Assembly: GCF_014633365.1 (NCBI RefSeq)
Contig: NC_068346.1
Location: 12,359,030-12,423,029 of the forward strand
Reading direction: 5' to 3'
Length of the DNA stretch: 64,000 nt
Source: Diospyros lotus
Taxonomy: Eukaryota > Streptophyta > Magnoliopsida > Ericales > Ebenaceae
The translations under genes were made by a program, and so were the position numbers. The notes below the pieces were generated by a model. The model was given only the letters and a program-made list of their open reading frames with translations. It did not search any database and was not told the DNA's origin. Positions 1,693-64,000 of the stretch are shown here, one piece after another; position 1 is the first letter of the stretch; the number at the start of each line of letters is the position of its first letter.

Positions 1693-4600
1693 GCCGGGGC
1701 GACGGCGTCAAGTTCTGCTAATAAATTTGAAGCAGGCAGAGCTGAGATTGAGGCTGCCAAGTGCCGAGTACCGAGTGCCACGTGCCGAGTGCCCAACCAA
1801 ACCATTTTCTTGTATTTTATCGTATCTATCTGCCTGTATCCCATCCTATCCTATCCTATCACATAGACACGTTACGATTTAGGTTTTATTGTACCATCCA
1901 TATAATTGTTAGTCTGTTACAATCGGTCATTGTTTATGATGTTAAACTATAATTAACGATAAGATTATTTTTTTTACTCACTTAATTAGGTGTCTAGTTT
2001 CGACGGATTAATATTTAGTACCTCAAGAATAAATTCAGATACAAACACTATACATACTCATAACTAAATATTTAGTACCAATCTATGCGAGATTTACTTT
2101 TCAACTAAATGTTATCTTTTAATAATAATTCTATCTTTTAAATCGTCATACTAATTTGAATCTCAATACTTTATATAAAACCTCAAGTACTTGCATTATC
2201 TCTCGGGCACAATAAAATTGTTTTGATCAATGAAAACTCTAAAATCAGTAACATACGTATTTTTAGAAAAATATTAGATTGAGTCTTAAAAAGAAGTTTA
2301 GTACTTAAGATATTCTTACTAGAAAAAATTTTTGAAACACTAGAATTTGTAACATTTTTTATATTGAATATTCTTATTAGAATAGTGTGCAAATTTGCTT
2401 CTAATAGTTTAAATAAAAAAATCCATTATTTTAAAGTTCCAAAGTCTGTTCATTTGGAAAATAATTTAACAACTTATTTAAAATGCTTGCATGTACGATA
2501 CTAACTATATATATATATATATATTAGCGTATATGACTTCTACATTAAGAGAAAGAAATAAAAACAAAATACTATCACGCCGGCCATTAACAACACTACC
2601 CAACTTTAAAAGAAAAAAACTTAATAATTATAATGCCAACCCAACCGTCCAACAAACTTAACAAGTAACGCCTCATACATACATACATACATAGCCTCCA
2701 CTCCGAATCGACCGACAATCTGCATAATTAAAGTGCCAAATATGGGCCTAAGGTGGAAAGTTGTGGATGGGTAATCATCACTCACTCTAGCGTGCCATCG
2801 CCACCCACCCAAAAAAGAAACAAGAAATAAAAAATATCGCGAGTCATGACAGTCGCATTGTGACAGTCGCATTGTGAGAGTTTTATTTTTTTATGGGAGT
2901 AATTCTTTGTGGATATTATGCACTATACTTTCTACCTAGTATGTTATCGTGAACCGTGATTAACTCATTTCATGTGCGTAGGACAGTGCGGGAGCTCTTA
3001 AGGTGAGGAATTTTACCTTTTGTACCTAAGAAATAAAAGATATTCAAGTAATTTTGTGAGAGTTCTACTTGAAAGAGGGATGGTTTTTTTTTAATTAATA
3101 TAATATTTATTAATTAAGATATAAGATGAAAAAGATCAAATATGGAAAGTATTTCGAATATTTATCCTTTCTAATATATTTGTTAAATTTATTTGGTACT
3201 ATTTAAAAAAGAAATCACGTGACTTTTTATCTTAATTTTTTTAGATATGTTTATTTTTTCTCCCCTCAAGACAGCATATATTAGTCCTTACAGATAAAAA
3301 AAAAAAAAATACTTTTATCCTCTAGTACATTTTAAAAAAATTTAATAAATAATTTAATAAAAATTTTAAAATATTTTTTAGTCTTATTTTTATCATTCCA
3401 TATCTTGTTTCGAAAAATATTATAGTTTTATCTAGATATTCACTTATCTTATTCATTTTAATGAATGGTATCTAAGATGTTAGTACGATTTTTTTTTTTT
3501 TTTTTTTTGAGTTGATGAACATGCAAATGTAATACGTTATGTATTTCCTAGGAGGTCCTCTCTTGTGGGGGGTTCAATCTATAATAATTATGTAGGGAAT
3601 AGATTCAAATATAAAAATTTAAATTGCTCACCATTCTCTACTGATCACACAGGAGCAACCAAGGAACAAATCCCTTGTGTATTTGTGTATCCCATCCCAC
3701 AGTGAGAGTGAATGTTTGGTGGCGTGCATGATTAGTTCGGAAGGAACAAATATTAATAATGATGGAATCATGGAATAATGTGGGTGTACAAGCCAGCATG
3801 ACAGTGCATCAGAAGGAAGAAGAACTGAGAGAGAGAGAGAGAGAGAGAAGGTCGGTGCTCCGAATGCGGAACAGATTTTGGGGGGTGGCGGCCCAATCAT
3901 ATGCATGTGCGATGGATTCAGTGCGGGCGGGCCGTTGTGGGCCTCCCGAGCCGCAAAATTTGACGCATAAAGGGGGGAAGCCTGCCCTGCCGAAAGCATA
4001 AGCATTCCCTCAATTTAAGCAATTAAATAAATGATTACCTTTTTTATGTTTAAAATCAAAAATTGGTCATAAATAATTAAATACATACATAAATATTGAA
4101 TAGAGCAAACAAAGAATGAGGGGCCCCATTAGGCATTTACTTCATTGGAACCCAACTATATATAGCATCAGCAACGATCTCATCTTATTATCCAGATTTT
4201 GAAAAGAACCACTATTCTCACATAAGAAGTTACCTCCTTAAAGAATTGGGTTGGAGGGTTGTTGTTCTTGCTGTTGCTGCTGTTGTTTAAAATTGCAACT
4301 AAACATAATGAATTCTACTTGATGAGAGTCTGTCTCTCTCTCTCGTTATTAATATCTTTTGGCTTAGCCGCTTTCGCACATGTGATGTGGGACTGATTCT
4401 GTCTCGTAGGTTCTCAATTGAAGTTCATATTCCAAAAACGAAACAAAACAAAAAAGAAGTGGAAATCCAGCAAGAACAAGGAACTGAGTTCTAAAATCAA
4501 ATTGGATTTGATTGGAGCGCATAAGATGCGATGCGATGCGATTGCACGGTTGTCTTGTCTTTGTCTTTCTTGTCTTTTCTTTCTTTCTTTTCCTCCATTG

Positions 4601-27020: not shown

Positions 27021-29638
27021 CTATAACTTATCAGCAATTCTGCCCAACGCATCCGCCAGTTTATTTAGAACTGAAACTAAGCTATCCTGATGGTCTTTGC
27101 GCTGAGCCCTATCTAGTTGAAAGTTGGTGTTATGCGATTCAAGTTGGGCGCTCAGCATTCTGCCATTCCTTTCTAAGACGTCTATCAACTGGCTTTGCAG
27201 GGTGTTCGTTTCATCGTCTCCATCTGCAGCAAACCGTTTCTTCTTACGTCCTTCCTGAGAAGTCGCCCCCGTCTCAGGGTAGCTGTTTTTTTGTTTCCCA
27301 TGTGTTGCACCTATAAACAACATCGAAAACTTGAACGGGCGAGGTGATAATTAAGACAACATCTAGGAACCCATATACCAACTGCCGAAAATTTATGAGC
27401 GCTTGTATTCAGGTAAAACATTGGCAACTTAGGACAGGATGGATGTGTGTTGGAAAAACAAGCCAACTCCAGATTATTGAAGTACATCTTTGTGGAACAC
27501 AAAGAAAAGAGGTATATTCAAGAGCATTTCGCCAGTTTCAACACAACCACAAGATTGATGTGTAAACTAGACTAAAAGCATGGCATAACAATGGGAGATA
27601 AAGGAAGCCTGTGGCTCGGGTGTCATAATGATTTGCAGATAACTTATGAAGATGAGGAGGTCAATCTGGTCCTGCGACAGGCTAGAAACCTGAAATGACC
27701 TGGTCCCATGAAATCATTTGCAAACCATTATGCACACTGTTATATGTTCTAATGACTAAAGAGATCCAATTACCCCCCAAAAGAAAAAAAAAAAAAAAAA
27801 ACTCAAGAATTTCCAATCCCAAAATGCCCACTCACGTCAACAAACAATGATGGCAGTCGCGCTGGCAGTCATTCGTTTGGAAAGCTTGGATGGGTGGCTT
27901 CTCACTGTTGTGTGAAGAAAATGTCTTGGGTTAAAATGAACCCAACAAAGAAACGTCATTTTCGAAGTTTTCAGAAATTTTCAAAATTTTGCATGTACTG
28001 ATTTTTAACAGACACAAATATAAATAATGTTTCATGTGTTCGTTTCCAAAATTTTTAAAACAAAAATAAAACTTTGAAAACAACTAAATCAAACAGGCTT
28101 GAGTTATCAATTTGTACATATAGTGTTCAAGACCGCTACCCAAATGCAAGCAAAGGGAGTGGACACCTAGCTGAGTTCACTCACACGAGGAATCGCACAC
28201 AATATCTATGATCCATTGTTGGACACAATTTAAAACCCAAGCTTCATTCTATATAAAACAATATATTTTTTAAGGCAGGGGATGTAGTGCGTAGGAAAAT
28301 TAAACTACTTGGTTTAGGAAAAACTGAGCCAATCACCCATTCGTCTAAGAAGGTAGTTTGAAAGCACAGCACAGGAAGTCGATGTCCCTATCTTTCTCAA
28401 CTATAAATGACTAATGCAGGGAGTATTTTGCAGTCTCGAGAAAGAATAAGTAAGGCCTGAACCATCAAACTACTGAATTTTATGTTTATGTTCAGGAAAA
28501 TGATCCTTAAACAAATCAGCTACGGATTTTAAGCTGTAACAGGTAGAATTGGCATCATCAAGATCACCAAAGAATCGGCAAATAAATATATCGTTGGATT
28601 TGGATAAAGTCATTTGACCCTATATTTTGCCAAACTCCAATGACTTGTTTGTATATATTATTAGGCAGGAAACATTTAGATTTGGGTCCAAATCCTTTGA
28701 AATGACACTTATAACATAGGTTTGGAGTCCTTCCATCCAAACGCCAACATAAAGGTATAGAGATTTGCATGTAAAGTTCCTACAATTCGGCCAGAATAAT
28801 GTTACCTTGAGACGGAGAGCCTTGAGCAAAAGGTTGAGATTGTTTTCCTGTAAACCAAACATCCAATTGGGAATCAGAATGAGATCGGCCCAATTTGATA
28901 ATCGGATTATAAGCCATATAAGCATGCAACCATATACAGCAATATACGAATTTGTTAATCCAAATTACCTGAACTTGGAGCATGCGTAGATACGGTCATC
29001 GCCGAAACCTCCTGAGCCGCCGGAGACTCCTTCTCCGGAGGGGTTCTGCCACCACCAGCCTCCTCCTGCGCCGACTGCTCAAAATCCGAAAACAACCCAT
29101 CCTCCACGGCCGCACTCCGCCCACTGTCAAACACCGCCTCGGCCTCAACCTCCTCCGCCGTCGACGGCGGCGGAGCCACCGTGGACCCACCGTCCAGTAT
29201 ATTGTACACCTCTCTGTCAAAGAATCCCGGCAACTTCTTCTCCCTCCTCAAATCGCTCCTCATCACCCAAAACGACTCCCCCTCGTCCCTCGCCTGCGAT
29301 TCCCACTCTTTGATCTTCTTATAGTCTCCCGCCAAATTGCTCCACCTCTTCCGGCACTGAACCGGCCCCCGGTTGACCCCGTTCCGCCTGCAGTACGACG
29401 ACACCGAAGCCCACTTCGGCTCCACCATGCCGGTCCCCAGAGCCAGCCCGCCGGTCCGGCCCCTACGAACCCGGCTCTCCGCCGCCCTCTTGCCCTGTAT
29501 TAGCACCAGAATCTCCTGCCTCGTCCAACGCGGCAGCCTCAGCGTCCTGCTTCCGTCGTCTCCGCCGCCGTTAGCAGCGGCGTCTGGGTCGGCGTCGACC
29601 GGCGAGGGGTCGAGAGTCAATCGCTCCTCCAGCGCCAT
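27021..29638 (-). CDS. ASR3: Trihelix transcription factor, ASR3-like
   Basis: Three exons, 28969-29638 (donor TCAG|gtaatt), 28806-28847 and 27021-27310, join in consistent phase to 333 residues. The ATG at 29638 starts MALEERL, which matches the ASR3 family start; the longer frame upstream is not used. The trihelix Myb/SANT-like domain covers about 36-125 with the three conserved tryptophans W38, W76 and W99 (LPRWTRQEILVLIQGKR, KWASVSSYCRRNGVNRGP, QCRKRWSNLAGDYKKIKEWE). LPGFFDREVY follows. A basic RKKKRF (about 259-264) may be a nuclear signal. The C-terminal ~59 residues form a predicted coiled coil (LQSQLIDVLERNG ... LNKLADALGRIADKL). In Arabidopsis, ASR3 is a MPK4-phosphorylated repressor of immune genes; function here is inferred by family. 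No LxLxL EAR motif is visible in this copy. Confidence 0.94.
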
Positions 29639-32150
29639 ACACAGGACAGGACTAGACCAGCGCCAAGGCACGTGACTTAACGGCGTTTTCAGGAACGGAG
29701 GCCCGTTTACAAGAAGAAGAGGGGATTACTGATTACTACTGATTAAGAGCGATTGAATGTAAAGAAAGGGCAGAGGAGGGCTAGTAAGGGTCTGTTTGGC
29801 TTTCTGATTTGGCCTTGCCTTGGGACTGGGCGCTGGCTGCCCTTTGTTTTGTGTTTGTTGCTGCTATATAGTAGGCTATAGGCCCCTTCCCCTTGGCTTT
29901 GTGGGTCTTTAATGTGACTTTCCCCAAATCTTCTTTATTTATTTTGGGAGATTTCCTTCCACCAACTAAAGGATTATCGCATCATTAACATATTTATTTT
30001 TCTTTTTATTGTTTGCCAATATGATTTGCTTGCTTCCATTTTTCAACATTAAATTAATTAAAATACTTTTAAGGGTGGCTCATTTCATTTTGCTTACCAC
30101 TTCTCGTACGCCATCTCTGTCACTTTCCTTCAGCTGCCATTCCCAACTCCTCCCTTCATTAACCTTTCCAACTTTTCTTTTCATCAAAATCGCCTAACCT
30201 CTGTTTGCTTTAATTTTTCATAAAATTACTTTTATTGGATTGTAAAAATACCAAAAAATAAGATTACGGAAAGATAAATACTTACTTTTATATAATTCGA
30301 TATCAGTCTAAGTCAATATTAAAAATAACCCTTAATATAAATATTTATGAATTTAAGGACTACCCTAGCAATTGTATCATTTACTATTCAAAACAATTTT
30401 TAAACTAATCCCATACTTATTCTTCTTATTACAAATACTATTGAGAATTGAAAAGGTATATCAGTCATAGTCATGAAAATATCTCATCTTATTTAATTTT
30501 AATTAATATCTCTCTCAAAAGATCGCATATATTAATAAAATATCTAAAAAAAAATTATCAAGTATTACTCAAAGAGATTTAGTTCAGTTGATGATAAGGG
30601 TTGCTACCCCCACCAAGAAGTAAAAAGAAACCTTCTCCACCATGTATTCAAATGTGACTGGAATCATTAAGCCTAATGATCTTACACATAATAATGCAAT
30701 GCTTAGGAAATGGTCCCTTACCTTACCAAAGGGGGCCACCGCCCACCTCCCTCCCTCCCTTTGGTTGCTTGCTTTGTGAACACTGACCAAGTGAAATCCT
30801 CACCGTGCATCTAATTAATGGGGTTGGCTGTTTGGCTTAAGTGTCGTTTTTTTTTTTTTTTTAATAATATATTGCTACTTTTAAAGAGTGAGTAAATGAA
30901 TTAACTAATAGATATTAAGAAGGGTTAATAAAATAATATATATTATTAAGTCCTATATATCCTATGAATGAATTATGTAATATATATATATATATATATA
31001 TATGGTCGTCCTCCACCACCACATTATGCCTAAACCTAACTTATTTGTTGTGAGAACAACAACAATAGCAACAACAACACTCCTTAAATCATATGAAATC
31101 AAAGGATGAAACGAACGAGGCAGTGAAAACAAATCACGGAAGAAAGCTTGGAAAGATGGGTTTGGAAGCACATGATGTCCCATGGGCATGGACATGGGGT
31201 GGGTTGAGACTTGAGAGAGGGTTTGTCAATTGGGGTAGGGGGTAAAGGTTAGTAGGGTGTCACAGTCACATTCAGCCTGTGATACACAAAGGGCCCTCAC
31301 TCCATGCCACATACACAACCGGACCCCCACCCCTTACAATATGTTAAAGAAGATGGATGCACTTACAATAATGCAACTTTAATTACTATACGTTTCCACT
31401 TGTTGTTTACTTGTTGATATATAGTATCTATCGTACACTATGCCTATGCTTATGCCTGTATTATGATTCAATAGGAGTAGGGCCTCATCACACTATTAAC
31501 AACAAGGGCTTGGGGATGATTAGGATTTGTCAACCAACAATTCCCTTTAATTAAAATGAGCGTTTGATATATAGAGTGAATTGAGTCATTTATATATATA
31601 TATATTATAATATTATTATTCCAAATACATTTTACGTATATTGCTTAAAAAATAAAAATTAATTGCACTAATAACACTTAAACTCATGCTTTTGAATAAT
31701 AAATAATTTTTCAAACAAATAATTTACTACTACGTCAGAGTTTATTTTATTTAAATTTTTATCTAAAAAAAAATTAACAAATAAACTATAACTAATTTTT
31801 ATTTAAATGTTTCTTTTCACGTACGTGTGTAAGACACATCACCTCTCTAATTTTTTAGTAAACGAGACTTAAGAAATATATATATTATTTTTTTATATGA
31901 AAATTTCAATCAAATCAACTCAAACTTGAGAAATAGTGATAGCCTCTACACACCCTTTATTATGGGTTTCTCCCATTATTATTCAAAATAGTTTTTAAAT
32001 TTATTATTCATAATTAAACATATCCATAAGTACAATATATTAAAATTAATTTTTATTTTAAAACTAAAAAGAGCCATGAGCTATTAATTTTTATTTGTAA
32101 ATGAATAAGAATAAAGAGAATAAAATAGAGATGACATCGACATTTATAGT
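29639..32150. other. ASR3 promoter side and intergenic DNA
   Basis: The ASR3-like leader and promoter should lie just right of 29638. Beyond it the DNA is AT-rich with T17 near 30848 and (AT)n at 30980-31002 and 31592-31604. Short frames (for example 30962-31195 minus) have no recognisable domain. Confidence 0.45.
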
Positions 32151-33425: not shown

Positions 33426-34625
33426 TTGATGAATATTTTTGAAACTTCCGTCCATGGCTATAATAATCTTCATTCAAATCAGCTGAAATTACTATCCAAT
33501 ATTTTGGTTATGTTAGGAAGGAGACAATCCTTGGAATTTCTCTCAAGTATATGGAAAATACTAACCAATATTCATGAGAGTGATCTAGTCATTAAGCCAC
33601 TCAACCATATGCCTCATCTTGGTATCTCTTGGAAGCAAACAACTCTTGTGGGCTGTTTTGTAGACAAAAAGATACCATTTCCTGTGGTTTGACTATGGGC
33701 ATAAGGCATAAATATGCATTCAAATTATTCCTTTATAGTCATTTGACCCCCCTACCTTGAAAATAAACTTATCATATCTCTGAGTTTTTAATTTTACTAC
33801 AATTACACCTCATCTCTTAAATAAATACGCATGAGATACACATGCATTGTCAATGGACCGTCAGTGAGGGAGGGGGGAGAAAACAAAAAAGTTAATATGA
33901 GCTTCCTCGCTTCATTCTCCAATTCCATGAAGCTCCAGATCTAGAAACTTAGCTACCACCTCTAAAATGCTTGTGTTGATCTTGTCAATACTATCGGAGT
34001 ACGATCCTCCTCCAACACCAAATCTGGAAAGAAAAATGCTAAGCTCTGGCCGATCTTCGCCACAACTGTGCCCAACTTTCAAGGTCGTTGTTTCTTCCAC
34101 CATCCTTCACCGACAACTTTTATTTCCTCCTTTTTAGTTCGTCAATGACTTGCTGACAAAGGTATGTGTATCTCACGTGTACTTATTTGGGAGATGAGGT
34201 GTGTAATTGTAGTAAAATTAAAAATTTAGAGACATGATAGATTCACTCTTAAGTTGGAAGGGTCAAATGGCTATAAGAGAAGAGTTAGAAGGCATATGTA
34301 TGCCTTGTGCCTTAATATATTGCTAATAAGGTATGTGCTTGTTTTCAGTGAGAGGAGGTCTTAGTCAAAGCCAATGGTTTTTACTTTTTAAGATTGCCCA
34401 ACAAGCTACAAATGAGGAGTCTTCCCTTTGATTTCAACAGGAGGACTACTCTTTAAACAATGGGTCCTTGGTATCACATTAGCTAAGGAGCACCATTGTT
34501 TAATTTCAATATTGGTCAAGTTTTATAATGTTTCTCAAGAGTTTTGGACTGACATAGGTTTAAGCCACATTGCAAGTGCGATGGGCAAGTCGTTACATGC
34601 TGGTAAATGAATGGAGCAATTATTC
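33426..34625 (+). pseudogene. DUF4283-type retroelement ORF fragment, split by an insertion
   Basis: Two open pieces belong together. 33426-33692 ends WKQTTLVGCFVDKKIPFPVV, and about 34370-34607 encodes NGFYFL...GGLLFKQWVLGITLA, ISILVKFYNVSQEFWTD and GLSHIASAMGK. These are signatures of the DUF4283 domain found in plant retroelement ORF1/gag-like proteins and related repeat proteins. A TIR element (33697-34312) separates them almost exactly at the end of the first piece. There are stops and frameshifts, so no functional protein. No reverse transcriptase was recognised alongside. Confidence 0.65.
33697..34312. mobile_element. TIR element (~616 bp, TIR ~150 bp) nested in the DUF4283 fragment
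   Basis: The left end GGGCATAAGGCATAAATATG pairs with the right end (inverted: AGGCACAAGGCATACATATG). Similarity continues for about 150 bp, including CATTTGACCC, TTTTTAATTTTACTACAATT, ACACCTCATCTC and GAGATACACAT. The long TIR suggests a Mutator-like non-autonomous element. The core (33900-34105) has an open minus-strand frame of 63 codons without a known domain. A target duplication was not evident. Confidence 0.6.
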
Positions 34626-41000: not shown

Positions 41001-44000
41001 CCTCCTTGGCTTGAGTGTATTGAGTAGTTGATAGGAATCAAAACAAATAGAGAAAATAGTTATTGTCATTAGGAGTTTCAAATTTTATCCAAACATATTT
41101 TAGTTTCGTTAGGACTTTTAGTGGATTGTTTGATGGAATCTTGGTGGTTCTATGTTACCGTATTAGGTAAGAGTACTTCTGAAGAATTTTAGTTGTTTGT
41201 GTTTAAGGAGTTTTATCAATATATAGGGCTCATTAATGCAATATGAAGATATGTTTTTTTTTTTTTTTTTTTGATTTATTGATTGGATAAAAAATTATTG
41301 ATTCTTCTTTGCTGAAATCCCTCTCGTTTCTTTCTCTTTCTATCTGGCTTCCTTCTCCCGCTATACCTCTTCTTATCCTTCCTCCCCTGATTTCTTCTCT
41401 TCAATCTTCTCTAAGTGTCTTTGTTGTCCGGCATCAGATTTGGTATCAGAACAACTCCAGTTCACTGTCATCAAGCTATTGTAGTCACTGTTTCTGTTGC
41501 TAATTGCATGCGCTGTTCGCTCTTGCTGTTCATATACACTGTTACTGGTTGCCAGGACTGCTGCCTGTTATTAGTTTTTTACACTTCTACAATTGCTGTT
41601 GCTTCAAAGTAATTACGACAACAAGACAGCGGAAGACAATATGTCGAGTCTTCTCAATATAGAAAATTGACAAAAACTTGAGACTGAGTAAGCAAGAGTA
41701 GTTCTAAAAGAGTTTTAGTTGTTTTAAGAGTTTTTTTCAAACCCCTATTTATATATAAGCAAACACCAGAATGGTGTTCTGAAGAATTGTCAATAATTTG
41801 ATTTCCCAAAATGCTGTCCATGCATCCTGGTTAAAAAAATAAACACTAACAACAATATGCAACCACCAAAATTTATCTCCACAAATATCTTTTCTAATAT
41901 ATAAAAACAAACCCAGTTTTTGGTATTACATCTTAATGAAACTGTCATAATTTTGAATTCCTGGAAAGGTCTTCATCCTAACTGCATGAAATTCTATTAT
42001 CTCAACACCCTTTTTTCCCCTCAAGTTGGGGTCAATAAAGTAAAATCATCCAAAACTCTCTTATCTGCTTGTTTTTATCCTGTAAAGATTCTTAAACTTT
42101 GAATATGTTTTTTATTTGAATAGATCTATAGTTATCTATTTTACCTTTTAATCTCTGCTTCCTAACCTTTATTTCTTCGTGTAAAGATTCACAAATTTTT
42201 TAATACACACACACACACATATATATATCACCTTCCTTGTCTCTGTGACTATTTAATAGATCATGTATCTAAATAAGTAAAGACTTTGAAACTTCTCATT
42301 AATTTAATGTATAGATAATTAATTAATTTTACAAAATATGTTAGTCTATATTTATATAATTTTATAAAATTAAATAATAAATGTATTATGCATAAATCAA
42401 TTAACAATTTTGTGCATCGCATGGGCTGGATCATTAGTGTTTTTTAATTGATTGATTGAATAAGAAATTGTTAATTCTTCCTTGTTGGAATCCCTCTCCT
42501 TTCTCTCTCTTTCTCTTGGCTAGCTTCTCCCTCTATTCTTCTTCTCCTTCTTCCCCAAATTTCCTCTTCAATCTTCTCTGGGTTTCTTTGCTGTGCTGCA
42601 TCAATAGTCCCTATAACTCTTATCATTAAAGTGTTATTCCTCATCATAGCTGATCCCAATCCCAGATGAAGAAAGATGGTTGCATTAGGTAGTTAACGAC
42701 TAGTGGAAAAACCCTTAATCTTTTGTCATAGATTGTAAGCATAGAGGGATGATTGGTGAGGTAGAACTAATGTAGCTGACCAAATGGGATTAAGGCTTGG
42801 TGATCGTGCTTCATGGCCTGAGTGTGGTTACATCCTCTCTGAAATTGTTTAACAAGACAGGTTATTACCTTATTGGCTAATTTAAAGTTATAAGCATTTA
42901 ATATTACCATGAAACCATCAATTCCTCAATGCAGTCAAAGGTGAGTGGCTCACTTACCTAGGCACTCGAGCTCATCAAGGCTCATGGATGAGCCTCATCT
43001 ATCTCTAGGCAAGGTGGCTTCAATTAGGCAACACCTGGGCAATAGGTGTCAAAGGTGCTGACCTAGGCGTAAAGAAAGGTTAAAGAAAAATTGCCCCAAA
43101 AATAAAAAATGGCATGCAAGGAGGCATTTACAAACTGAAAATGAAAGAGGAAAGTAGAAGGAAATTGGAAAGTAAAGAGATTGTAGTTGCCTTTTCATTC
43201 TTGTCTCTTCTTTCTTCTTTTGTAGCTAGAAATATCACCAAGAAATTGATACCAGGAAGGTGAGTTAGAGAAGTCTCACCGGAGGTTGGCTGTTGATGGG
43301 CGATCCCTCTGATAGGCACATCCATCTATTTTTCTCCCTTTAATATGATATGGTGGGCCTAGTGATGTGGCAGACACCCCATCTCTAATTTTTTCTTTGG
43401 AATTCTAGTGTGCTGCTTTATTTGGGCTTATAGTTTGGCTTTCGACAGTTATACTAATTTTTTGTTCGTTCTCTATTTCTTTATAATATATCAAATTTCT
43501 TTTTGTTTTTCAGTATTATTACTGCCACCACAAGTGGCTTACAGATCTATTTCATTAAGTGGAGGCAGGAAAATATGATCTAGCTTCAAAATTTAAATTT
43601 TTGTGAGATCTCAAAGATGTTCACTTGAACATTATCCATTTATTGCAAGATCCTAATGTTATTTGTTTGAACATTATTAAAAGAATTTGTAGAGTATTTT
43701 AGAAGTCTTAGATCCATTATCTGATTATCTGTTCATGTTAGATATGTTACTAATTTTTTTTTGTCAATTTAGTGTCTTACTTAGGCCAGTGCATCCCCCC
43801 CCGCCCCGGCACCAGCACCTCAGTCAACGTAATGTCATATAGTGCCTTACCTCTGACTACCTTGCTTTTCCCTCCAGCTTGCAACTTTTTCTGGGTCAAT
43901 GGTTGTCTTTTATCATTAAAGTTTTTACAACGTCCAATCATTTACCAAACTCGCAGGATGTCTCTGGAAAAATCCGCATGAAGCCACGTGATCCTCGAAG

Positions 44001-46522
44001 AGCTCTACATTGCAAATCATTTGAAAAGAATGGGAGCTTGGGACTTGATCAATCCAACACATATGCAGCTTCTAGTCCACAGGAAATAACGGGCAATTGG
44101 AATTCTCAAAAGCAAGAAGACCAGTCAGATAAAAAGTCGACATCTTCTCAGTTGTTCATGGGACCAGATATTACCCAGCAACTCACCAAAAATCTGAAAA
44201 ATATTGCTGACATTGTGTCTGTTTCTCAAGCATCTATTACTCCAGTTTCTCAGATTTCTGCTTCACCACTGGTACAGGTTCACTCAAGTAGAGTGGACTA
44301 TAAAGGCTTAGTAACAGAGTCAGGCCACCTGCAAAATGGGTCTCTCTCGTCATCTGAAGTGGCTGCTGGCCCCTCTCGATCACAGAACACCTGGGTTGAT
44401 GTTGAGCATCTTTTTGATGGATTTGATGACCAGCAGAAAGCTGCAATCCACAGAGAGAGGGCTAGGAGAATTGAAGAACAGAAGAAGATGTTTGCTGCAC
44501 GGAAGCTGTGTCTTGTGTTGGATCTGGATCACACACTTCTTAATTCGGCAAAGGTATAATAATTTCATCAAGTGGATACAATTGTTCTTACTATTGAAGC
44601 CTTTTAAGATTAGAAACATGATAAGCTTATTCTTCTATCTGCTCTTTCAGTTTACTGAAGTGGACCCGGTGCATGATGATATATTGAGGAAGAAAGAGGA
44701 ACAAGATCGTGAAAAGCCACAGAGGCATCTCTTTCGGTTTCCTCATATGGGAATGTGGACTAAGTTGCGGCCTGGGATTTGGAATTTTTTGGAGAAGGTA
44801 CCGTTTATGCTTTTTTTTTTTTTTTTCAAATTTCCACAATTGCCTTTTGCGTTTGTTGTGAAAATCCTGATACAAATGTGTGTTGGCATTTCAGGCTAGT
44901 AAGCTTTTTGAATTGCATCTTTACACCATGGGGAACAAACTGTATGCTACAGAGATGGCAAAATTGCTTGATCCAAAAGGATCCTTGTTTGCTGGGCGAG
45001 TTATCTCTAGGGGTGATGATAATGATGTTCTAGATGGTGAGGAGAGGGTTCCTAAGAGCAAGGATTTGGACGGGGTTTTGGGTATGGAATCTGCTGTGGT
45101 AATTATAGATGATTCTGTTAAAGTCTGGCCACATAACAAACTAAACATGATTGTTGTAGAAAGGTAAAGAAATGGACATATTTTAGGGAAAAACTAGAAG
45201 TCCAGTTTCAATCTGCTTGTTTTACCAATGCTCTTTTTCATGAACTACTTGTTTTGCAGGTATATTTATTTTCCTTGCAGTAGGCGACAATTTGGGCTTT
45301 TAGGTCCTTCTCTCCTTGAGATTGATCATGACGAGAGGCCAGAAGATGGGACTTTAGCATCCTCTTTGGCGGTGAGATCATATAGCCATGAGAATTGTCA
45401 ACATGATTGTTTTTCTCCTCCCTGTTTATGTGTTTGTTGCCTTGAACAATAGGTCATTGAGAAAATACATCAGAACTTCTTTTCGCATCCAGAATTGGAT
45501 GAAGCTGATGTCCGAAACATCCTAGCCTTAGAGCAGCGGAAGATTCTTGCTGGTTGCCGCATTGTCTTCAGTAGGGTGTTCCCAATTGGTGAAGCCAATC
45601 CTCACTTACATCCATTATGGCAGACAGCTGAGCAGTTTGGTGCTGTTTGTACCAACCAGATAGATGAACAGGTCACTCATGTGGTTGCCAATTCACTTGG
45701 GACCGACAAGGTATTTGCTGCTTACTCTTTCCCTGCATTTTTTATGACTATTCATCTGGTATTTGTTTATTTTTTTCATCTACTAGCCTGGTTCGGAGAA
45801 GTTTATTGGCATTTATAAGGGTAGGTATAGAATTTATTTAGGATATAGAAGGTTAAGCATCCAATTGTCATATGTTGAAAGCGGAGGAGGAATGGAGGAT
45901 AGACATTGTTGGATAGGGATGGCAATTACAGCCCAATTTGACCGGTATCTTACAAATTCGGTCCATTTGGGGATGGTATGGACTTGAAATTTTCTTTGAT
46001 GGGGGGGGTGGATGTGGACTGGGAAATAAAAGAACCTGTGCTGGTACAGGTTGTGTGGGGGGAGGTGCCTCCAATTCATATCATCCTAACCCTCTATATT
46101 AACATAATTGTGGACGTGATGCAGTTTGATATGACACTGCCCTGCACAAATGTGATAAGTGGGGGGTGAAATGAAGAGAGTTGATTTCCTATAACATACG
46201 TATTATGATCATCGCGAGGGCTAACCTAAAAAATTCTTCCAAACAGGTGAATTGGGCTCTCTCAACTGGAAGATATGTTGTCCATCCTGGCTGGTAAGAA
46301 TTGAATTATTGCCTATAGTTTTGAAAATGTGACGGCAGTGGTGTCGTCTTTTATTACTTTTTTTTTTCTTTTTTTACATATTTGAATTTAATTTCTTTTT
46401 TTTTTGTGTGGTGTTTTTGTCATTTTTACGGCTAAAACAATTACAGGGTGGAAGCTTCTGCTTTGCTTTACCGGAGAGCAAACGAACAAGATTTTGCTAT
46501 AACTATAAACAACCACCATTGA
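38044..46522 (+). CDS. CPL3: RNA polymerase II CTD phosphatase, CPL3-like (FCP1 + BRCT)
   Basis: Twelve coding exons: 38044-38753, 38884-39016, 39110-39165, 39288-39348, 39425-40834, 43957-44553, 44651-44797, 44895-45163, 45260-45371, 45453-45710, 46247-46293, 46447-46522. They join in phase to 1291 residues. The start may instead be Met22 (38107, MGREECQ). The N-terminal region has acidic EEGEI repeats and the conserved VWIQDLYKYP ... LYNLAWAQAVQNKPL (about 75-113). The FCP1 phosphatase domain begins LCLVLDLDHTLLNSAK, with catalytic DLDHT at 979-983 and the conserved IIDDS near 1108-1112. A BRCT domain ends the protein (about 1188-1280; LAGCRIVFSRVFP ... VVHPGWVEAS). CPL3 dephosphorylates the Pol II CTD (Ser2) in the nucleus and dampens ABA and immune responses in Arabidopsis. 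Intron 5 is 3.1 kb and contains a candidate LTR element. Confidence 0.95.
41153..42600 (+). mobile_element. Candidate small LTR retrotransposon (TRIM-like) in CPL3 intron 5
   Basis: Two direct repeats, about 41153-41433 and 41682-42600, share ATCCCTCTC, CAATCTTCTCT and ends CCGGCA / CTGCA. Right after the first comes TTTGGTATCAGAAC (41440-41453), matching the primer binding site complementary to initiator tRNA-Met. The second repeat appears to carry an extra ~640 bp (about 41770-42420). The 5' boundary and target duplication are not clear, so this is a hypothesis. Confidence 0.45.
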
Positions 46523-48400: not shown

Positions 48401-51400
48401 AAATTGCACTAATCACCTTTATAATTTTAAAAATAGCACCAACCTCCCTTTGAAGTTAGCTACTGTGTATAATATAATCCTCAGTTAATTTTATTAAAAA
48501 GCCCATAATATTCCTAAAATTGAAAAGAAAAAAAAACTAAAAATATTGGTGGCTGTCGGTGGCCACAAAAACCATCATTCTAGAGGTTGGCCATGGATGA
48601 AGTTGGAAAATTGCCAAAAAAAAAATTGCAATTGCAATTGGGTTCAATGTTGCATCTAGGTTTGAATCAAAACCTAGATACAATGGCTTTGATTGAAACC
48701 CTCTTAAGCAGCATTTGAGTTTCGATTAAAACTTAAAATATTTTTGAGAAAAAGAGAGAAAGTTACCATCGTATTGTCATCCTTCCCAACATCACAAATC
48801 TAATGCGACACTTTTACCATTTCTAGCAAACCGATCAATTGTTCAAACTATGAGGGTTTTGATCGAAATTTAGATAGGTTTGACTCCACAAATGATACAA
48901 AGATTAGAAGAGAAGATGAAGATGTAAACAAGTTGAGTCATGTTTAGTTTAGCTCTATTTAGGTTTGACTTGTTTATTTTTAAAGATATTTAACTCGTCT
49001 TGCTTATGAGTCAAGATTTATAAAAAAGTATTGAACTTGTTCTTAGACTATTTTTCATGTTTGAGCTACGTTTGAATAACATAAGTGAATTGATTTGACT
49101 TTGTTATCAAGTTTATTCTTGAACAAAAAGTTATAGAATTTGTTTATGAACAAGCATTTATAGATGAACTATTTTTTTTTAATGATAGTTTGTATAATTA
49201 TATTGTCACCAAAATCATAGATTTAGAAGCAAGAAAAAATCAAGATAAACCATAAACACATCTTAGAGATATTTATATACTCTTATTAAATAAACAAACA
49301 AATGAATTTTTGATGAACTTTAAAAAAATTATAAACTAGCTTGTTTATGAACATAAATGAGCTAAATAGTTTTCTTTTTTTCGAGCATGACTTTTTATTA
49401 AACTGACACTGAATTTTTGCTTGAATTTGTTTATTAATTTAATAAGTGAACATAAATGAACTCAAATCGAACTTATGAATAAGCTATTCATTAAGGGAGC
49501 GTTTGTTAAAATGAGTAAGATAAGAGATATCAAGATAAGTTTGGAATGCATTCCCAATCAAGATATGGAATGAAAAAAATAAGGTTTGAAAATATTCCAA
49601 GATTTCTATTAGTGTTTGTTAAATTTTTTGGAATCTATTGATAATTGTATTTTTTCTTTTTATATGTTTGTTAATATATATGATAAATATTAAGATAAGA
49701 GTTTTTTTTAGCAAAATATCAATATTATTAAATTTATGATTAAAATACTATTTTATGATTAATATGAATTGTCAAAAAAATAAAAATAATTAAAAATAAT
49801 ATTTTATTTTCTAAATTCATGTTCAAAAATAAATTTAAAAGGAGTTGAAAAGTATAAATAATTATTATTAGAATTACAATAATTTCACCTAGATAATTAA
49901 AAATGGCCAAAACATATTTTCATAATAAATAATAAAATATAAAATTAAATAAAATAATTTAAAAATTGGTGAAATGAATTATATTAGTTAATAATATATA
50001 TATAGAGAGAGAGAAAGAAATTTAAATTTTAAAAATCAATGAAATGAATAATGTCATTTAAATTTTAAAAATTGTCAAAACATATAACAATTTAAAAATA
50101 TATTAAATAATATAAATTATAAGACTTAAATAAATAATTTTTTTAATAAATTTAAATCTTTAAAATACATTAAATGACATTAACTATCCTAAAAGGTGCA
50201 TATAAGTAATTGAGTTTTATCTTAAAAGAGCCAGATAAATTTATCTGATGGGGGAGTTTGGATAAGTTTATCTTGAAAATGGGAGATAAGAGGTCACGTG
50301 AGATTTTTCGAAAATTGTCAGATAAATTTAACAAACACGTTGGAAAGACCAAACATCCGGGATGCTTCCCATATCTGACATTCTCTCCCTCTTATCATTT
50401 AATGTCTTTTCAAACGTGTTTGTTAAGCTTATCTGACCATTTTCAGAAAAGGTCTCACATGACCTCTTATCTCCCCGTTTCAAGATAAATTTATCCGATC
50501 TTCTTATCGGATAAATTAATCTGGCTCTTTCAAGATAAGCCTCAATTATTTATCTACCCCTTGTAAGATAGTTAATGCATTTTAAATATTTAAATTTATT
50601 AAAAAAAATTATTTATTTAACTCTTATAATTAATATTATTTAATATATTTTAAAATTATTATATGTTTTGACAATTTTTAAAATTTAAATGACATTATTC
50701 ATTTCATTGATTTTTAAAATTTAAATTTCTCTCTCTATATATATTTTATTAACTAATATAATTCCTTTCATCAATTTTTAAATTATTTTATTTAATTTTA
50801 TATTTTATTATCTATTATGAAAATATGTTTTGGTTATTTTTAATTATGTAGGTGGAATTATTATAATTCTAACAATTATTATTTATACTTTTCAACTCTT
50901 TTTTAATTTATTTTTGAACATGAATTTAAAAAATAAAATATTATTTTTAATTTTAATCTTAATTTTTTTGACAATTCATATTAATCATAAAATACTATTT
51001 TAATCATAAATTTGGTAATAGGGATATTTTAGTAAGAAAAACCCTTATCTTGGTACTTATCATATGTATTAACAAACACATCAAGAAAAAGTATAGTTAC
51101 CAGTAGATTCTAAAAAATTTAACAAACAGTCTGATAGAAATCTTGGAATGTTTCCCGACTTTATCTTGACCATTCTATATTTTGGTCCAGAAAGTATCTT
51201 AATCTTATATTGATATCACTTTATCTTGCTCATTTTAACAAACGTTCCCTAAATGTATTAGTTTGTTTATATCCCCAAGAGAGGATGAGAGAAAAACAAA
51301 TAATAGAAAAAACGATCTAGGATGGTTGGTTGGCAATTATCGTTGAATCATATGCATTTTTTATGTAACAGATGAGTTAAAGAAGAGTAATGGAAAGGGA

Positions 51401-51560
51401 GATGATAGATAAAGAGTAGAAAAATATTATTTTATATTTAAGGGCAAAATGGTCAATTTTAAGAGTTTGTTATAGCCAAGGGAGGTCGGTGTCATTTTAA
51501 AAAATATAGTGATGGATGGTATAGTTTAGATAGATCTTAAGGGTGACGGATGAAATTTAC
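48401..51560. mobile_element. Possible outer TIR element carrying the nested foldback
   Basis: About 48401-48470 (TCACCTTTA ... TTTTAAAAATAGCACCAACCTCCCTTTG) and the inverse of about 51475-51560 (TCACCCTTA ... TTTTTTAAAATGACACCGACCTCCCTTGG) are similar in inverted orientation. That suggests an older ~1.4-kb element into which the 1755-bp foldback inserted. Similarity is imperfect and no coding domain is recognised. Confidence 0.35.
49495..51249. mobile_element. Giant foldback (long hairpin) PIF/Harbinger-like element
   Basis: The whole 1755-bp element is an inverted repeat with arms of about 850 bp, centred near 50370. The ends GGGAGCGTTTGTTAAAATGA and inverted GGGAACGTTTGTTAAAATGA match at 19 of 20 positions. 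Similarity persists through the arms; ATTTAAATTTTAAAAATCAA near 50018-50045 pairs with 50710-50740. TAA flanks both ends (49492-49494, 51250-51252), a Harbinger-type 3-bp duplication. No transposase. Open frames near the centre (50170-50488) are mirror images of each other and not genes. Transcription through it would give a very long double-stranded RNA. Confidence 0.85.
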
Positions 51561-52060: not shown

Positions 52061-52065
52061 ATTAT

Positions 52066-52665
52066 TCTAACATCTCACGTCGAGTTATAGGAAGAATCGG
52101 AACAACTTACCTTGATGGGCTTATACGAACTTTCTAGGGGGTCACCCATCTTTGAGCTCCCCACCTCAAACACGCTTAACTCTGGAGTTTTTTGTCTACA
52201 TTAAATCCAAAAGATATCCAGCTAGTGTTGTTTCCCTCATTATTTATCCTCGATATATACTACTCTTCTTTAGGTTCTTGGGGTATTACATTCTCTCCCC
52301 CTTAATCATATGACATCATCGTTATGCGACTTTATAACTGGTCTCAGCTCTTTCTCGTCTAGTGTCTCCGGTCTAGTACCTAGCCTTTGGTTAGTACACA
52401 GTCCCAACACACGGTCTAGGTTAGCTTTGATACCACTTGTAACATCCCGTATCGAATAATAGGAAGGATTGAAACAACTTATCCTGATAGGCCTATGCAA
52501 ACTTCTTAGGGGGTCACTCATCTTTGAGCTTTCCTAGCTTAAAACACGTTTAACTCAGGAGTTTTTTTACTTACATTCAGCCAAAAAAGTATTTAGCTAG
52601 TGTTGTTTCATTTCTTATTTATTCTCGATATATATTACCATTCTTTGGACTTTTGAGATATTACA
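52066..52665 (-). mobile_element. Complete Cassandra-type TRIM retrotransposon
   Basis: A 600-bp element with two LTRs: 52066-52290 and 52438-52665. The internal part is only ~147 bp. On the minus strand the 5' LTR ends TTACA, followed two bases on by TGGTATCAAAGC (plus-strand 52424-52435), a primer site for initiator tRNA-Met. A purine tract (AGGGGGAGAGAA, plus-strand 52291-52302) abuts the 3' LTR. A perfect 5-bp target duplication ATTAT flanks it (52061-52065, 52666-52670). Each LTR carries a 5S rRNA-like stretch (inverse of GGGGGTCACCCATCTTTGAG and ACACGCTTAACTCTGGAGTT), the hallmark of Cassandra. Non-autonomous. Confidence 0.9.
52143..52198 (-). ncRNA. 5S rRNA-like segment in the left Cassandra LTR
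   Basis: The minus strand carries the 5S rRNA internal-promoter region in degraded form (AACTCCAGAGTTAAGCGTGT ... GATGGGTGACCCCC; 5S: AACTCCGAAGTTAAGCGTGC ... GATGGGTGACC). A second, more diverged copy is at about 52510-52565 in the other LTR. Not a functional 5S gene. Confidence 0.75.
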
Positions 52666-59671: not shown

Positions 59672-60649
59672 CCCAATCGATTAGCCAACTGGAGCAGGAG
59701 AGTTGCCTGGGATGCACCATTCCTATTCGTTATACGATAGAAATTACTTGCAGTGGGCTCAACTTGTGAGGATGTTCCTCAAAGGTCGAGGGAAGATTGG
59801 CCAACTGGCCACTTGATTGGACCCCCTCCAAAGTTCTCATATCCCATATTCACAGCATGGGATATTGAAGACTCTTTGATCATGTCTTGGCTATAGAGTG
59901 CCATGCAACTAGAGGCTAGTAAGAATTTCATGTTTTTAACTTCAGCGAGAGATATTTGGGAGACTGTGAGGCAAACCTATTCTAAGGTTCAAGATGCCTC
60001 GATAATTTTTGAGATTAAAACTAAGATTAGTAGCACTAGACACGAAACCTTGACTATCACAGAGTACTACAATAAGATGAAAGGATTATGGCTAGAACTA
60101 GACCACTATCAAGACATCAAAATGGTGTGCATTGCTGATGCTACCACCCTCAATTGGATTTTTGAACGGGATAAGATTGTAGAATTCCTAGCATGCCTAA
60201 ATCAACAGTATGATCAAGTAAGAATTTAGGTGCTTGCTAGGGAGAAACTGCCTGCTCTTAATGAAGTATTTGCCATTATTAGAAGGGAAGAAGATAGAAG
60301 GGTAGCTATGCTCAATGAACATGGTGCCGAAAGTTCAGCTATGGTGTCAAGTAATAGAGAAGGAGCACGATTTAGAGCAGGAAAATCAGAGGTGTCAATG
60401 AAAAATTCAGGCTGTGAATGCCTGTGGTGTACCTATTGCAGGAAGCCAAGGCACACTGGGGATACATGCTTCAAACTCCATGGGAAAGAAGCTGTCTTGA
60501 GCAGAATGAGAGGTTTTAAGAACCTAACTCCCAAGAACCAGGTCTATATCTCCAACAAGGAGCAAGAGGAAGCTGGATCTGTAGAAAAGACAGATCCTAT
60601 TGGATTTGACCTTCCTCAATTGAATGTAGAGGAGATTAATAAACTCTAG
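59672..60649 (+). pseudogene. copia gag (UBN2-type) with zinc knuckle, broken
   Basis: The gag starts YLQWAQLVRMFLKGRGK near 59740. Then comes a frameshift near 59800, a TAG at 59894-59896 and another TAG at 60227-60229. Open blocks 59903-60229 and 60230-60649 carry ARDIWETVRQTYSKVQDA and the CX2CX4HX4C zinc knuckle CTYCRKPRHTGDTC (about 60427-60468). Confidence 0.85.
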
Positions 60650-60754
60650 AATTTCCTAAGGACAATCCGGGACGAGGCTTGCTCACTTGCTCAGCAAGGT
60701 AAATTCCTACATTCTAAGTCTTTTTCTGCCACTAAAACTGATAAGAGTAACATG

Positions 60755-61700
60755 TGAATCTTGGATTCAAGAGCCATTGATCATATGACCCCTAACTTGA
60801 ATATTTTTGAGACAAATAAGCCCCTTGAAACCCCTAAACATATAACCATTGCTAATGGAACCTCAGTTCCCATCACTGGCCAGGGCAAGGTTAAACTTAG
60901 CCCTATCTTATCTGCCAAGCAGGTACTTCATGTACCTAACTTGGCTATCAACCTTATCTCTATTCATCAATTTACCAAGGAATTAAATTGTCGTGCTATT
61001 TTTTATCCTCTATGTGTGGATTTCAGGACATGAGCATGGGGAAGATGATTAGTGTGGTTGAGGAGCATAATGGTCTGTACTTCTTACACAAGGAGACTGA
61101 TCCTAAGGGGGGGTAGCACACGGTTGCTTGCTCATCCCAGTCAAATTCTGGCCCTGCACCATTTGGCTCCATCATTATAGGCTACGTCACCCTCATTTTG
61201 CTTTGTTAGAGAGTATGTTTCCTGCTTTGTTTAAAACCCTAGATCCTAGTATGTTTTAATGTGATGTGTGTGTAATTTCAAAACACCACCGTGTGTCCTA
61301 TCCAGTCAGCAATAAAATGTCATCTAAACTTTTTTCCTTAGTCCATTCGAATGTTTGGGGACCATCCAAGATCCCCAATTGTTTTGGGGCTAGGTGGTTC
61401 ATCTCCTTTATAGATGATTGTACTTGAATGTGTTGGATCTTTCTATTAAAAGATAAAGTTGCCATTGGAACTGTCTTGCCCTATTTTTGCAAAATTATTT
61501 CTACTCAATTTGTCACTCCTATACAGAAGTTCTGAATTGATAATGCAAGGGATTATTTCAATAATCACTTGCATAAGTTTTCTTAGTAAGGAATTGTTCA
61601 CGAATCTTCCTGTATAGATACTCCATAGCAAAATGGAGTAGCTGAAAGGAAGACGAGACATATTCTTAATGTTGCCAGCTCTTCTCCATCACCACCATGT
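60755..61700 (+). pseudogene. copia protease and integrase, broken
   Basis: The protease block (60755-61033) has its active-site motif changed to DSRA (60764-60775) instead of DSGA, and a TGA where the family has Trp before ILD. The integrase follows with LFSLVHSNVWGPSKIP, FISFIDDCT then a stop, IDNARDYFN and QQNGVAERK. The acidic catalytic positions are still traceable but the frame has many stops. Confidence 0.8.
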
Positions 61701-61743
61701 CTCTAAAAATTACTAGGGAGAGGCTGTTCTAACTGCGGCTTAT

Positions 61744-63250
61744 GTGATTAATAGTGTTCCATCTAAGGTTTTAAATAATAAAAGTCCTTTCTGCTACCTG
61801 TCCTCATTCTTCCCAGACTTAAGTTTGCATACCCCTCTTCCACTTCGAGTGTTTGGTTGTGTGCGCTTTGTTCACATCCCTAAAATCCACCAAGACAAAC
61901 TTGATCTTAGAGCCCTTAGGTGTGTCTTCCTTGGTTACTCTCCAACTCAAAAGGGCTACAAGTGTTACAGTTCTACCTCTAGGAAATTCTATGTCTCCAA
62001 AGACGTCACCTTTGTTAAATCTCAACCATTTTTTAGCCCTCCTCAGATTGGTCCCCAGGGGGAGATTGGAGAATATGGGGACCAAAGCATTAGGTAAGAC
62101 TTTCATAACCTAGCACTAGCACCAACACCAACTAGCCCAAGTGATCTAGCCGACTCTCTAGTTCACACTAACCAGTCTCTGCATCCTAACTCTACTCCTA
62201 TTCCACCTACTTCCTTTGCTATCTCTCCTCAACCTGCAACATGCAATGAGCAAGCAGTCCCACGATTACCATCCCCAATTAGGTTTAAGGGCTCTTTTTA
62301 TGTGTTCAAAAGGAGGTAGCCCATTGTGGATTCTCAGCTTGCATCAATATCAGGCCTCAACCCAGGTATGGAATCTACACAACCATTGGATTCAACCCTT
62401 CCTAACCCTGTTTCTAATGACTTGGACCTGCCAATTGCTATAAGAAAAATGGGTCAGAAGTTGTACCTTACACCCTTTGTCTAATTACCTGTCCTACCGT
62501 CGTCTCTCCCAAAACCACAAAAGCTTCCTAACCTCATTGGATACCATTGTTATTCCTAAGTCAGTAGATGAGGCTCTAAAAGATCAGAATTGGAAGCAAG
62601 CTATGCTAGGGAAGATGAATGCTCTAAATAAAAATCAGACATGGGAATTGGTGTCTAGAATTTCAGGGAGTCACCCTAGTTGGCTACAGGTGGATATTTA
62701 ATTTAAAGTACAAGGCTGATGGAACTTTGGAGAGGTATAAAGCTAGGCTAGTGGCCAAGGGCTACACTTAGTCCTATGGCATAGATTATCTTGAGACTTT
62801 TGCCCCCGTGGAAAAAATTACCACTGTGAGGATTCTTATATCTCTAGCAGCTCATTTTGGGTGGAAGATGCAACAACTAGATGTGAGGAATGCCTTCTTA
62901 CATGGGGACTTGGAGGAGGAAGTGTTCATGGAGTTACTTATTGGATTTCAGGAAGGAGAGGCAAGTACAGTGTGCAAGCTTAAAAAGGCTTTGTATGGGC
63001 TCAAGTAGTCCCCATGGGTATGGTTTGGCAAGTTTTCTAAGGCCATGAAGTCTATGGGATACTACCAAAGTAGAGGGGATCACACCCTCTTCTTCAAACA
63101 TTCGGGAGGAAATGATGATGAAGAACATCATCATTTGAGATAATGATATAGTGGTCACAGGAAATGATGATGAAGAACATCAGATCCTCAAAGGGAATTG
63201 GCTAAGGAATTTGGGATTAAAGACCTTGGGGTTCTCAAATATTTTTTGGG
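61744..63250 (+). pseudogene. copia integrase tail and reverse transcriptase, catalytic loop lost
   Basis: 61744-62097 encodes the conserved post-integrase block (LRALRCVFLGYSPTQKGYKCY). The RT block begins near 62540 (VDEALKDQNWKQAM), then YKARLVAKGYT, ETFAPVEKITTVRILISLAA and QQLDVRNAFLHGDLEEEVFM. The region of the YVDD box near 63107-63182 is disrupted by a duplicated 24-bp segment and stops. GIKDLGVLKYFLGIEVA-type sequence resumes after it with a frame change. Confidence 0.8.
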
Positions 63251-63405
63251 AATAGAAGTTGCTTACTCTTAAGGCTGGAATTTTCCTATCCCAACATCAG
63301 TATGTGTTAGATTTGTTGACTAAAACAGGGATGATAGGGGGCAAAGGAGTCAACATACCTGTGGATCCTAACATTAGATTGTAGGAAAACCCAGAAGAGA
63401 AAGCA

Positions 63406-64000
63406 GTGGATAAAGGAGGGTTCCAAAGGCTTACTGGCAGGTTGATTTACCTCTCTCATACTAGGCCTGGCATAGCTTTTGCTGTCAGCCTAGTAAGTCA
63501 ATTCATGCACAACCCAACCGAGGAGTATATGCAGGCAGTGAGGAGGATCTTGAGCTACCTAAAGGCCACACTGGGTAAGGGCATCTTGTATAAAACTGGG
63601 GCTGAATTAAATGTATAAGGATTTACAGATGCAGATTATGGTGGTTCTCTAATTGATAGGAGATCCACAACTGGATATTGTGTGTGTTTTTTTTTTTTTT
63701 TTGGGGGGGGGGGGGAGGAATCTTGTGTATTGTAGGAGTAAAAAGCAAAGCATTGTGGTAAGGTCTACTGCAGAGGCAGAATTTAGGGCTATGGCCTTGG
63801 GTTTATGTGAATTGATGTGGGTACGGATTATTTTGAAAGATTTGAAGATCAAGATTCAAGGTACTATTGAACTATTTTGTGATAATCAATTAGCTATTAA
63901 TATTACTCACAATCCTGTTCAACATGACATGACAAAACATATAAAAATAGACCGGCACTTTATAAATGAGAAGTTGGATGCTGGTCTAATTCAGATTCCC
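63406..64000 (+). pseudogene. copia RNase H region, broken by a T16G13 run
   Basis: GGFQRLTGRLIYLSHTRPGI (from 63415) and FTDADYGGSLIDRRSTTGYC (from about 63620) are followed by T16 (63687-63702) and G13 (63703-63715) within the domain. Then AEAEFRAM, LFCDNQLAI and TKHIKIDRHF appear out of frame. The 3' end and 3' LTR lie beyond the window. Confidence 0.8.

Follow-up and report, generated by a model that had tools for sequence, protein, structure and literature searches.

The closest described systems fall into several groups, each of which shares some features with the element reported here. Tourist-like MITEs and other non-autonomous PIF/Harbinger elements, as described for the MtPH families of Medicago, resemble it in their TAA duplication, in their G(N)5GTT ends and in that a transposase gene was not found (PMC2213677). 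In that account of Medicago, the rule for the PIF/Harbinger superfamily is a G(N)5GTT end together with a duplicated TAA or TTA, and the autonomous members have inverted repeats of 14-25 bp (PMC2213677), whereas the present element is 1755 bp long, with about 850 bp in each arm. FARE1 of Arabidopsis and MuTAnT of Medicago are likewise plant elements that consist mostly of long palindromic arms made of modules, but they are of a Mutator-like class, and MuTAnT is described as located in TA microsatellites (PMC4486113). Galileo, a Foldback-like element of Drosophila, also has long arms, with several copies of a short motif that are THAP sites of its transposase (PMC3688188), and template switching during gap repair and arm extension have been discussed for it (PMC4168063). 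Galileo differs in that it belongs to the P superfamily, makes 7- or 8-bp duplications and lives in flies, and the repeat found in the arms here, GTTTGTTAA, is only a putative binding site. Finally, the OGI hairpin locus of Diospyros lotus is also an inverted repeat, but it is described as gene-derived and as acting on MeGI through small RNA (PMC7048303). No PIF/Harbinger foldback with such long arms appeared in the titles or abstract openings among the matches listed, which does not prove that none exists. A long foldback is an already known structural kind; what may be new here is a possible one-armed parent form, together with the motif in the arms.

A foldback element with PIF/Harbinger-type ends

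The element lies in a window of 64,000 nucleotides (64 kb), which is the whole stretch of Diospyros lotus DNA that was analysed and to which all coordinates refer. Its parts are the following:

49495-51249: foldback element, 1755 bp, flanked on both sides by TAA
49492..49494, no strand: left target-site duplication TAA, read in the sequence, with the boundary taken from the alignments
49495..50349, plus strand: left arm, 855 bp, starting with GGGAGCGTTTGTTAAAATGAG, from the arm alignments, with the inner limit set by eye
50350..50403, no strand: loop, 54 nt, joined to left-arm sequence in a decayed relative
50404..51249, minus strand: right arm, 846 bp, repeating the left arm in inverted orientation with 88% identity, from the arm alignments, with the inner limit set by eye
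51250..51252, no strand: right target-site duplication TAA, from the sequence and the alignments

A preliminary description of this DNA had reported an inverted repeat at 49495-51249, and the repeat proved to be real and correctly placed. When the two halves were aligned in inverted orientation (in an alignment whose first base lay 2 bp in from the left end), the score was 1206, compared to 160.8 (sd 13.4) in 50 shuffles and to 153 for the same halves in direct orientation. When the window was scanned without gaps for inverted pairs (seed 12, length at least 60, within 8 kb), five were found, four of them from this element. Foldback elements are defined by arms that make up nearly the whole element, and the arms account here for 1701 of the 1755 bp. 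Long reads that fold on themselves give chimeras that are generally known to create palindromes, and the preliminary description had itself raised such an assembly fold artefact. We consider it hardly credible that a read folded on itself, during assembly or library construction, produced the palindrome: its arms differ by 100 substitutions, 66 of which are transitions, with only nine gaps, a TAA stands directly outside each end, and a separate, diverged relative exists at 3113-3461.

The fifth pair is a smaller inverted repeat elsewhere in the window, at 33698-34311 (arms of 111 nt without gaps, or about 158 nt when gaps are allowed, with an identity of about 80%), and is possibly another decayed MITE.

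The element ends with GGGAGCGTTTGTTAAAATGAG on the left and GGGAACGTTTGTTAAAATGAG on the right, and its tips carry GGGARCGTTTGTTAA ends. Both GGGAGCGTT and GGGAACGTT follow the G(N)5GTT rule, and a 3-bp duplication of the TAA/TTA kind is present at both ends, although at one AT-rich locus the TAA alone could have arisen by chance. The PIF/Harbinger-type GGGA(G/A)CGTTTG ends and TAA duplications that had been proposed from the sequence thus fit the published rule of G(N)5GTT plus TAA (PMC2213677). When the 20-base end was searched through the 64 kb with up to three mismatches, there were two matches, both of them the element's own (0.02 expected). A 21-base pattern of the end had no match in viral_contigs, a result that says little about a plant element. 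Grapevine MULEs are described with a 9-nt target duplication (PMC2528002); a Mutator-like duplication of about 9 bp was not found here, as ATTCATTAA and TAAATGTAT outside the two ends agree at 2 of 9 positions (by eye). At position 29785, TAAGGGTCTGTTTGG fits TAA plus G(N)5GTT too, and it may be another PIF/Harbinger-type tip.

Of the stop-to-stop frames of at least 55 aa, we compared seven with Pfam: five lie within the element and one crosses its border (59-79 aa for these six), and the seventh lies next to it (85 aa). No family was found in them at E values up to 0.1. No transposase gene was seen among the window reading frames scanned, and a search of Rfam at gathering scores gave no match. 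Since no coding domain was found in the open frames, we took the element to be non-autonomous. Judged from its sequence, it is a decayed non-autonomous class II element with PIF/Harbinger-type ends and the structure of a foldback, and its insertion was very probably the work of PIF/Harbinger-type proteins made elsewhere.

The earlier remark that the element is unusually long for a Tourist MITE was upheld, as it measures 1755 bp while MITEs are given a typical length of 50-800 bp (PMC12550479). It thus lacks the short length of a Tourist MITE and, even though a 2025 review describes the upper size limit of MITEs as being without clear consensus (PMC12595863), it is better named a foldback element than a MITE.

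The rest of the window contains the following pieces of genes, each with the domain named:

8165-8797, minus strand: AP2 gene piece
13631-14659, minus strand: RRM_2 gene piece
16753-16947, minus strand: RRM_1 gene piece
28955-29725, minus strand: gene piece for a Myb_DNA-bind_4 trihelix protein
45453-45818, plus strand: BRCT gene piece

The trihelix protein (28955-29638, minus strand) was 99% identical over 99% to ASR1 of Diospyros kaki, with the next matches at 70%, and it was 65% identical over 95% to one Diospyros lotus protein, presumably a paralogue (among the best 120 of 758 matches in each case). This one protein suggests Diospyros as the probable genus of the host. Two direct repeats were also seen, one to the right of the foldback (52065-52290 and 52437-52665, about 229 bp, 77% identical, 372 bp apart) and one at 41267-41436 and 42440-42603 (about 170 bp, 82% identical). 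Open frames in 59897-63615 resemble, by eye, a broken copia-type retrotransposon; one of them matched Pfam Retrotran_gag_2 with an E value of 0.00083 but fell short of the cut-off of that family, and the frame at 62444-62698 matched nothing.

Divergence of the arms and predicted folding of a transcript

The arms had been described as near-perfect reverse complements of each other, which they are not. They are identical at 739 of 839 ungapped columns (88.1%; 28 gap columns in nine gaps), with 66 transitions and 34 transversions between them and a K2P distance of 0.131, in an alignment cut at 49495-50352 versus 50402-51249. The high identity had also been taken as a sign of young age or of ongoing correction between the arms. 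With a K2P of 0.13, young age is not supported, and the divergence of the arms provides no date for the insertion, since arms that already differ can be carried along when a copy moves.

This divergence is unevenly distributed: the outer 240 columns of the alignment are 80% identical, columns 240-700 reach 95%, and those beyond 82%. The middle of the arms is also very poor in G+C (3-16% per 75-column block, versus 19-37% in the other blocks), and this scarcity of C/G sites accounts in part for the 95% identity. Between limits for the arm middle that were picked after inspecting the data, transversions were fewer than elsewhere (11/440 versus 23/399, p 0.022), as were transitions per C/G site (12/56 versus 54/149, p 0.046). 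Ongoing correction is therefore at most hinted at by these two deficits, as some gene conversion between the arms that may have acted in their AT-rich middle. Sorted by context, transitions had changed 5 of 11 C/G sites in CG, 3 of 9 in CHG and 58 of 163 in CHH, and no clear methylation signature was found in these contexts.

If RNA were made from the whole element, it is predicted to fold back on itself, with all 782 of 782 predicted pairs joining mirror positions (within 40 nt). The minimum free energy was -881.5 kcal/mol, compared to -275.7 (sd 7.5) in 10 mononucleotide shuffles and to values from -353 to -450 for four further segments of the window with equal length. Only seven perfect runs reach 21 nt, the longest perfect duplex being 72 nt, and when G-U pairs are allowed a transcript could pair at 779 of 839 sites if made from the plus strand and at 765 of 839 if made from the minus strand. 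The suggestion that such a transcript would be a Dicer substrate fits the predicted fold. A transcript running through the element would form this long, interrupted hairpin, and it is possible that such folded transcripts feed 24-nt siRNA silencing, as inverted repeats are described to do in Arabidopsis, where 486 of 634 are near genes (PMC12595863). One may go further and see in the element a hairpin-RNA locus that the host has retained for its siRNAs, with a strong predicted fold and with OGI as an inverted repeat of Diospyros lotus that works through small RNA (PMC7048303). Such a role is very improbable in our view, considering that the arms have diverged by 12%, that no perfect duplex exceeds 72 nt and that the open frames lack any protein family.

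A decayed relative and a motif repeated in the arms

A sequence related to part of the element was found elsewhere in the window:

3113..3461, minus strand: decayed relative, apparently one-armed, which matches element positions 12-171 and the part from 790 through the loop to its end

The relative matches positions 12-171 at 75% and positions 790-884 at 73%, and then continues through the loop to 50403; its outermost tip is unrecognisable, and positions 172-789 of the element are absent from it. Under two of three alignments, the match stops at 50403, which is the last base of the loop, an end that is uncertain by some bases as the last few matched ones are AT-rich. Against the left inner arm and loop, the score of the relative was reached by 0 of 400 shuffles under all four scoring settings. 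When the sequence that follows in the relative (2999-3130) was compared with the right inner arm, 272, 131, 290 and 33 of 400 shuffles did as well, while the corresponding counts for an unrelated control (51300-51420) were 24, 233, 108 and 400 of 400. Since the control reached 24 of 400, the borderline 33 of 400, obtained with the strict global score of the flank of the relative, is within noise. One permissive alignment extended the match across the right inner arm as far as 50506, and it was not relied on in view of these same shuffle counts.

Because the relative joins the left arm to the loop, the loop may once have been the right-hand part of an element with one arm. A degenerate right end, or a third terminal repeat, was also looked for in the loop, where the resemblance was weak (12 of 500 shuffles versus the left tip and 120 of 500 versus the right tip). 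Scored for a hairpin of its own, the relative reached 24.5 versus a shuffle mean of 22.2, which 110 of 500 shuffles equalled; its comparison with itself by BLAST pointed in the opposite direction, with one match (97 bp, 69%, E 0.001, with the low-complexity filter off).

In a three-way alignment of the two arms and the relative (175 + 69 sites), the arms agreed against the relative at 42 sites, while the left arm agreed with the relative at 28 and the right arm at 12. Counted by transversions only, these last two numbers became 5 and 6, which is what sister arms should show. At 15 of the 28 sites shared by the left arm and the relative, both have A/T where the right arm has G/C, and the excess of 28 over 12 would probably reflect parallel decay in the left arm and the relative. 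All these comparisons concern a single relative, within the window, that is itself decayed and AT-rich.

The arms also contain short repeats, as is the case in foldback elements. The motif GTTTGTTAA has a single copy in the window outside the element and eight within it, four per arm, which are spaced rather than tandem:

49501..49509, plus strand: copy 1, within the terminal repeat
49614..49622, plus strand: copy 2
49666..49674, plus strand: copy 3
50328..50336, minus strand: copy 4, at the inner end of the left arm and in reversed direction
50418..50426, plus strand: mirror of copy 4
51069..51077, minus strand: mirror of copy 3
51119..51127, minus strand: mirror of copy 2
51235..51243, minus strand: mirror of copy 1

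The nine occurrences in the 64 kb compare with 1.59 expected, and 0 of 100 shuffles reached nine. Within the left arm and loop, the motif is the only 9-mer with at least two G/C that is present four times; 0 of 2000 shuffles of that sequence reached four copies of it, and 0 of 300 reached four of any such 9-mer. Three copies in each arm lie less than 180 bp from the tip and point inward, and one at the inner end points the opposite way. With these orientations, each arm resembles an element with oppositely oriented ends. The relative at 3113-3461 has no intact copy of the motif; it has six sites with up to two mismatches, the best of which has one. Considering that the ORF1 protein of PIF/Harbinger elements is described as binding element ends (PMC2836001), we infer that GTTTGTTAA is a candidate transposase-binding repeat.

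Possible origin of the second arm

The simplest reading of these comparisons is that the arms are sisters, which would have come from inverted duplication of a one-armed element. We thus consider it fairly probable that a non-autonomous PIF/Harbinger-type element turned into a foldback when its left arm and loop were duplicated in inverted orientation. The starting point would have been an ordinary one-armed element of 909 bp, made of what are now the left arm and the loop. It would have been inverted-duplicated near its right end, probably when a strand switch or a snap-back took place while an excision gap was being repaired, giving a product with two copies of the left end and without the right end. 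This product would then have moved as a unit to the present TAA, served in trans by the transposase and the Myb-like ORF1 partner of an autonomous relative, and would later have decayed, with transitions in excess. Several points stand against such a duplication: change is slower in the middle of the arms than a single uniform duplication predicts, the relative has no intact GTTTGTTAA, the loop resembles a right end only weakly, and the relative, the only one compared, could have lost a right arm through deletion.

That last point leads to the opposite order of events, in which the foldback is the ancestral form, long-armed and PIF/Harbinger-like, and 3113-3461 is a truncated and internally deleted foldback. 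Since positions 172-789 are lacking in the relative, either one side lost sequence by deletion or the other gained it by insertion, and one permissive alignment extends into the right arm. This longer alignment has no clear shuffle support, the other two stop at the border between loop and right arm, and a deletion would have had to strike at that border by chance, which makes an ancestral foldback unlikely. A little less likely still is a composite of two one-armed copies that inserted in opposite directions, adjacent or nested, and lost their inner ends, whether it then stayed in place or moved as one. The arms do differ at 12% of their sites, and unevenly, and the right arm departs from the relative more than the left one does (28 versus 12 sites). 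When only transversions are counted, the departure is even (5 versus 6), no inner TAA-GGG end is seen by eye at the loop, and the outer pair of TAA suits a single insertion.

If inverted duplication of a one-armed element is set aside, what remains is an ordinary decayed mobile element that is longer than usual MITEs. If it holds, a cut-and-paste element of the ordinary kind could become a long foldback by a direct route, and subterminal repeats, gap repair and the rise of new hairpin RNA sources in plants would be tied together in a testable way. A more specific version can be put forward only tentatively, as one that we do not yet favour: the foldback and its one-armed parent form would lie within the same 64 kb, a snap-back would have doubled the left end, and the two-left-ended product, with four probable transposase-site repeats per arm, could jump. 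If this is true, a single step is enough for the PIF/Harbinger superfamily to build foldbacks, and an element with two like ends is able to transpose.
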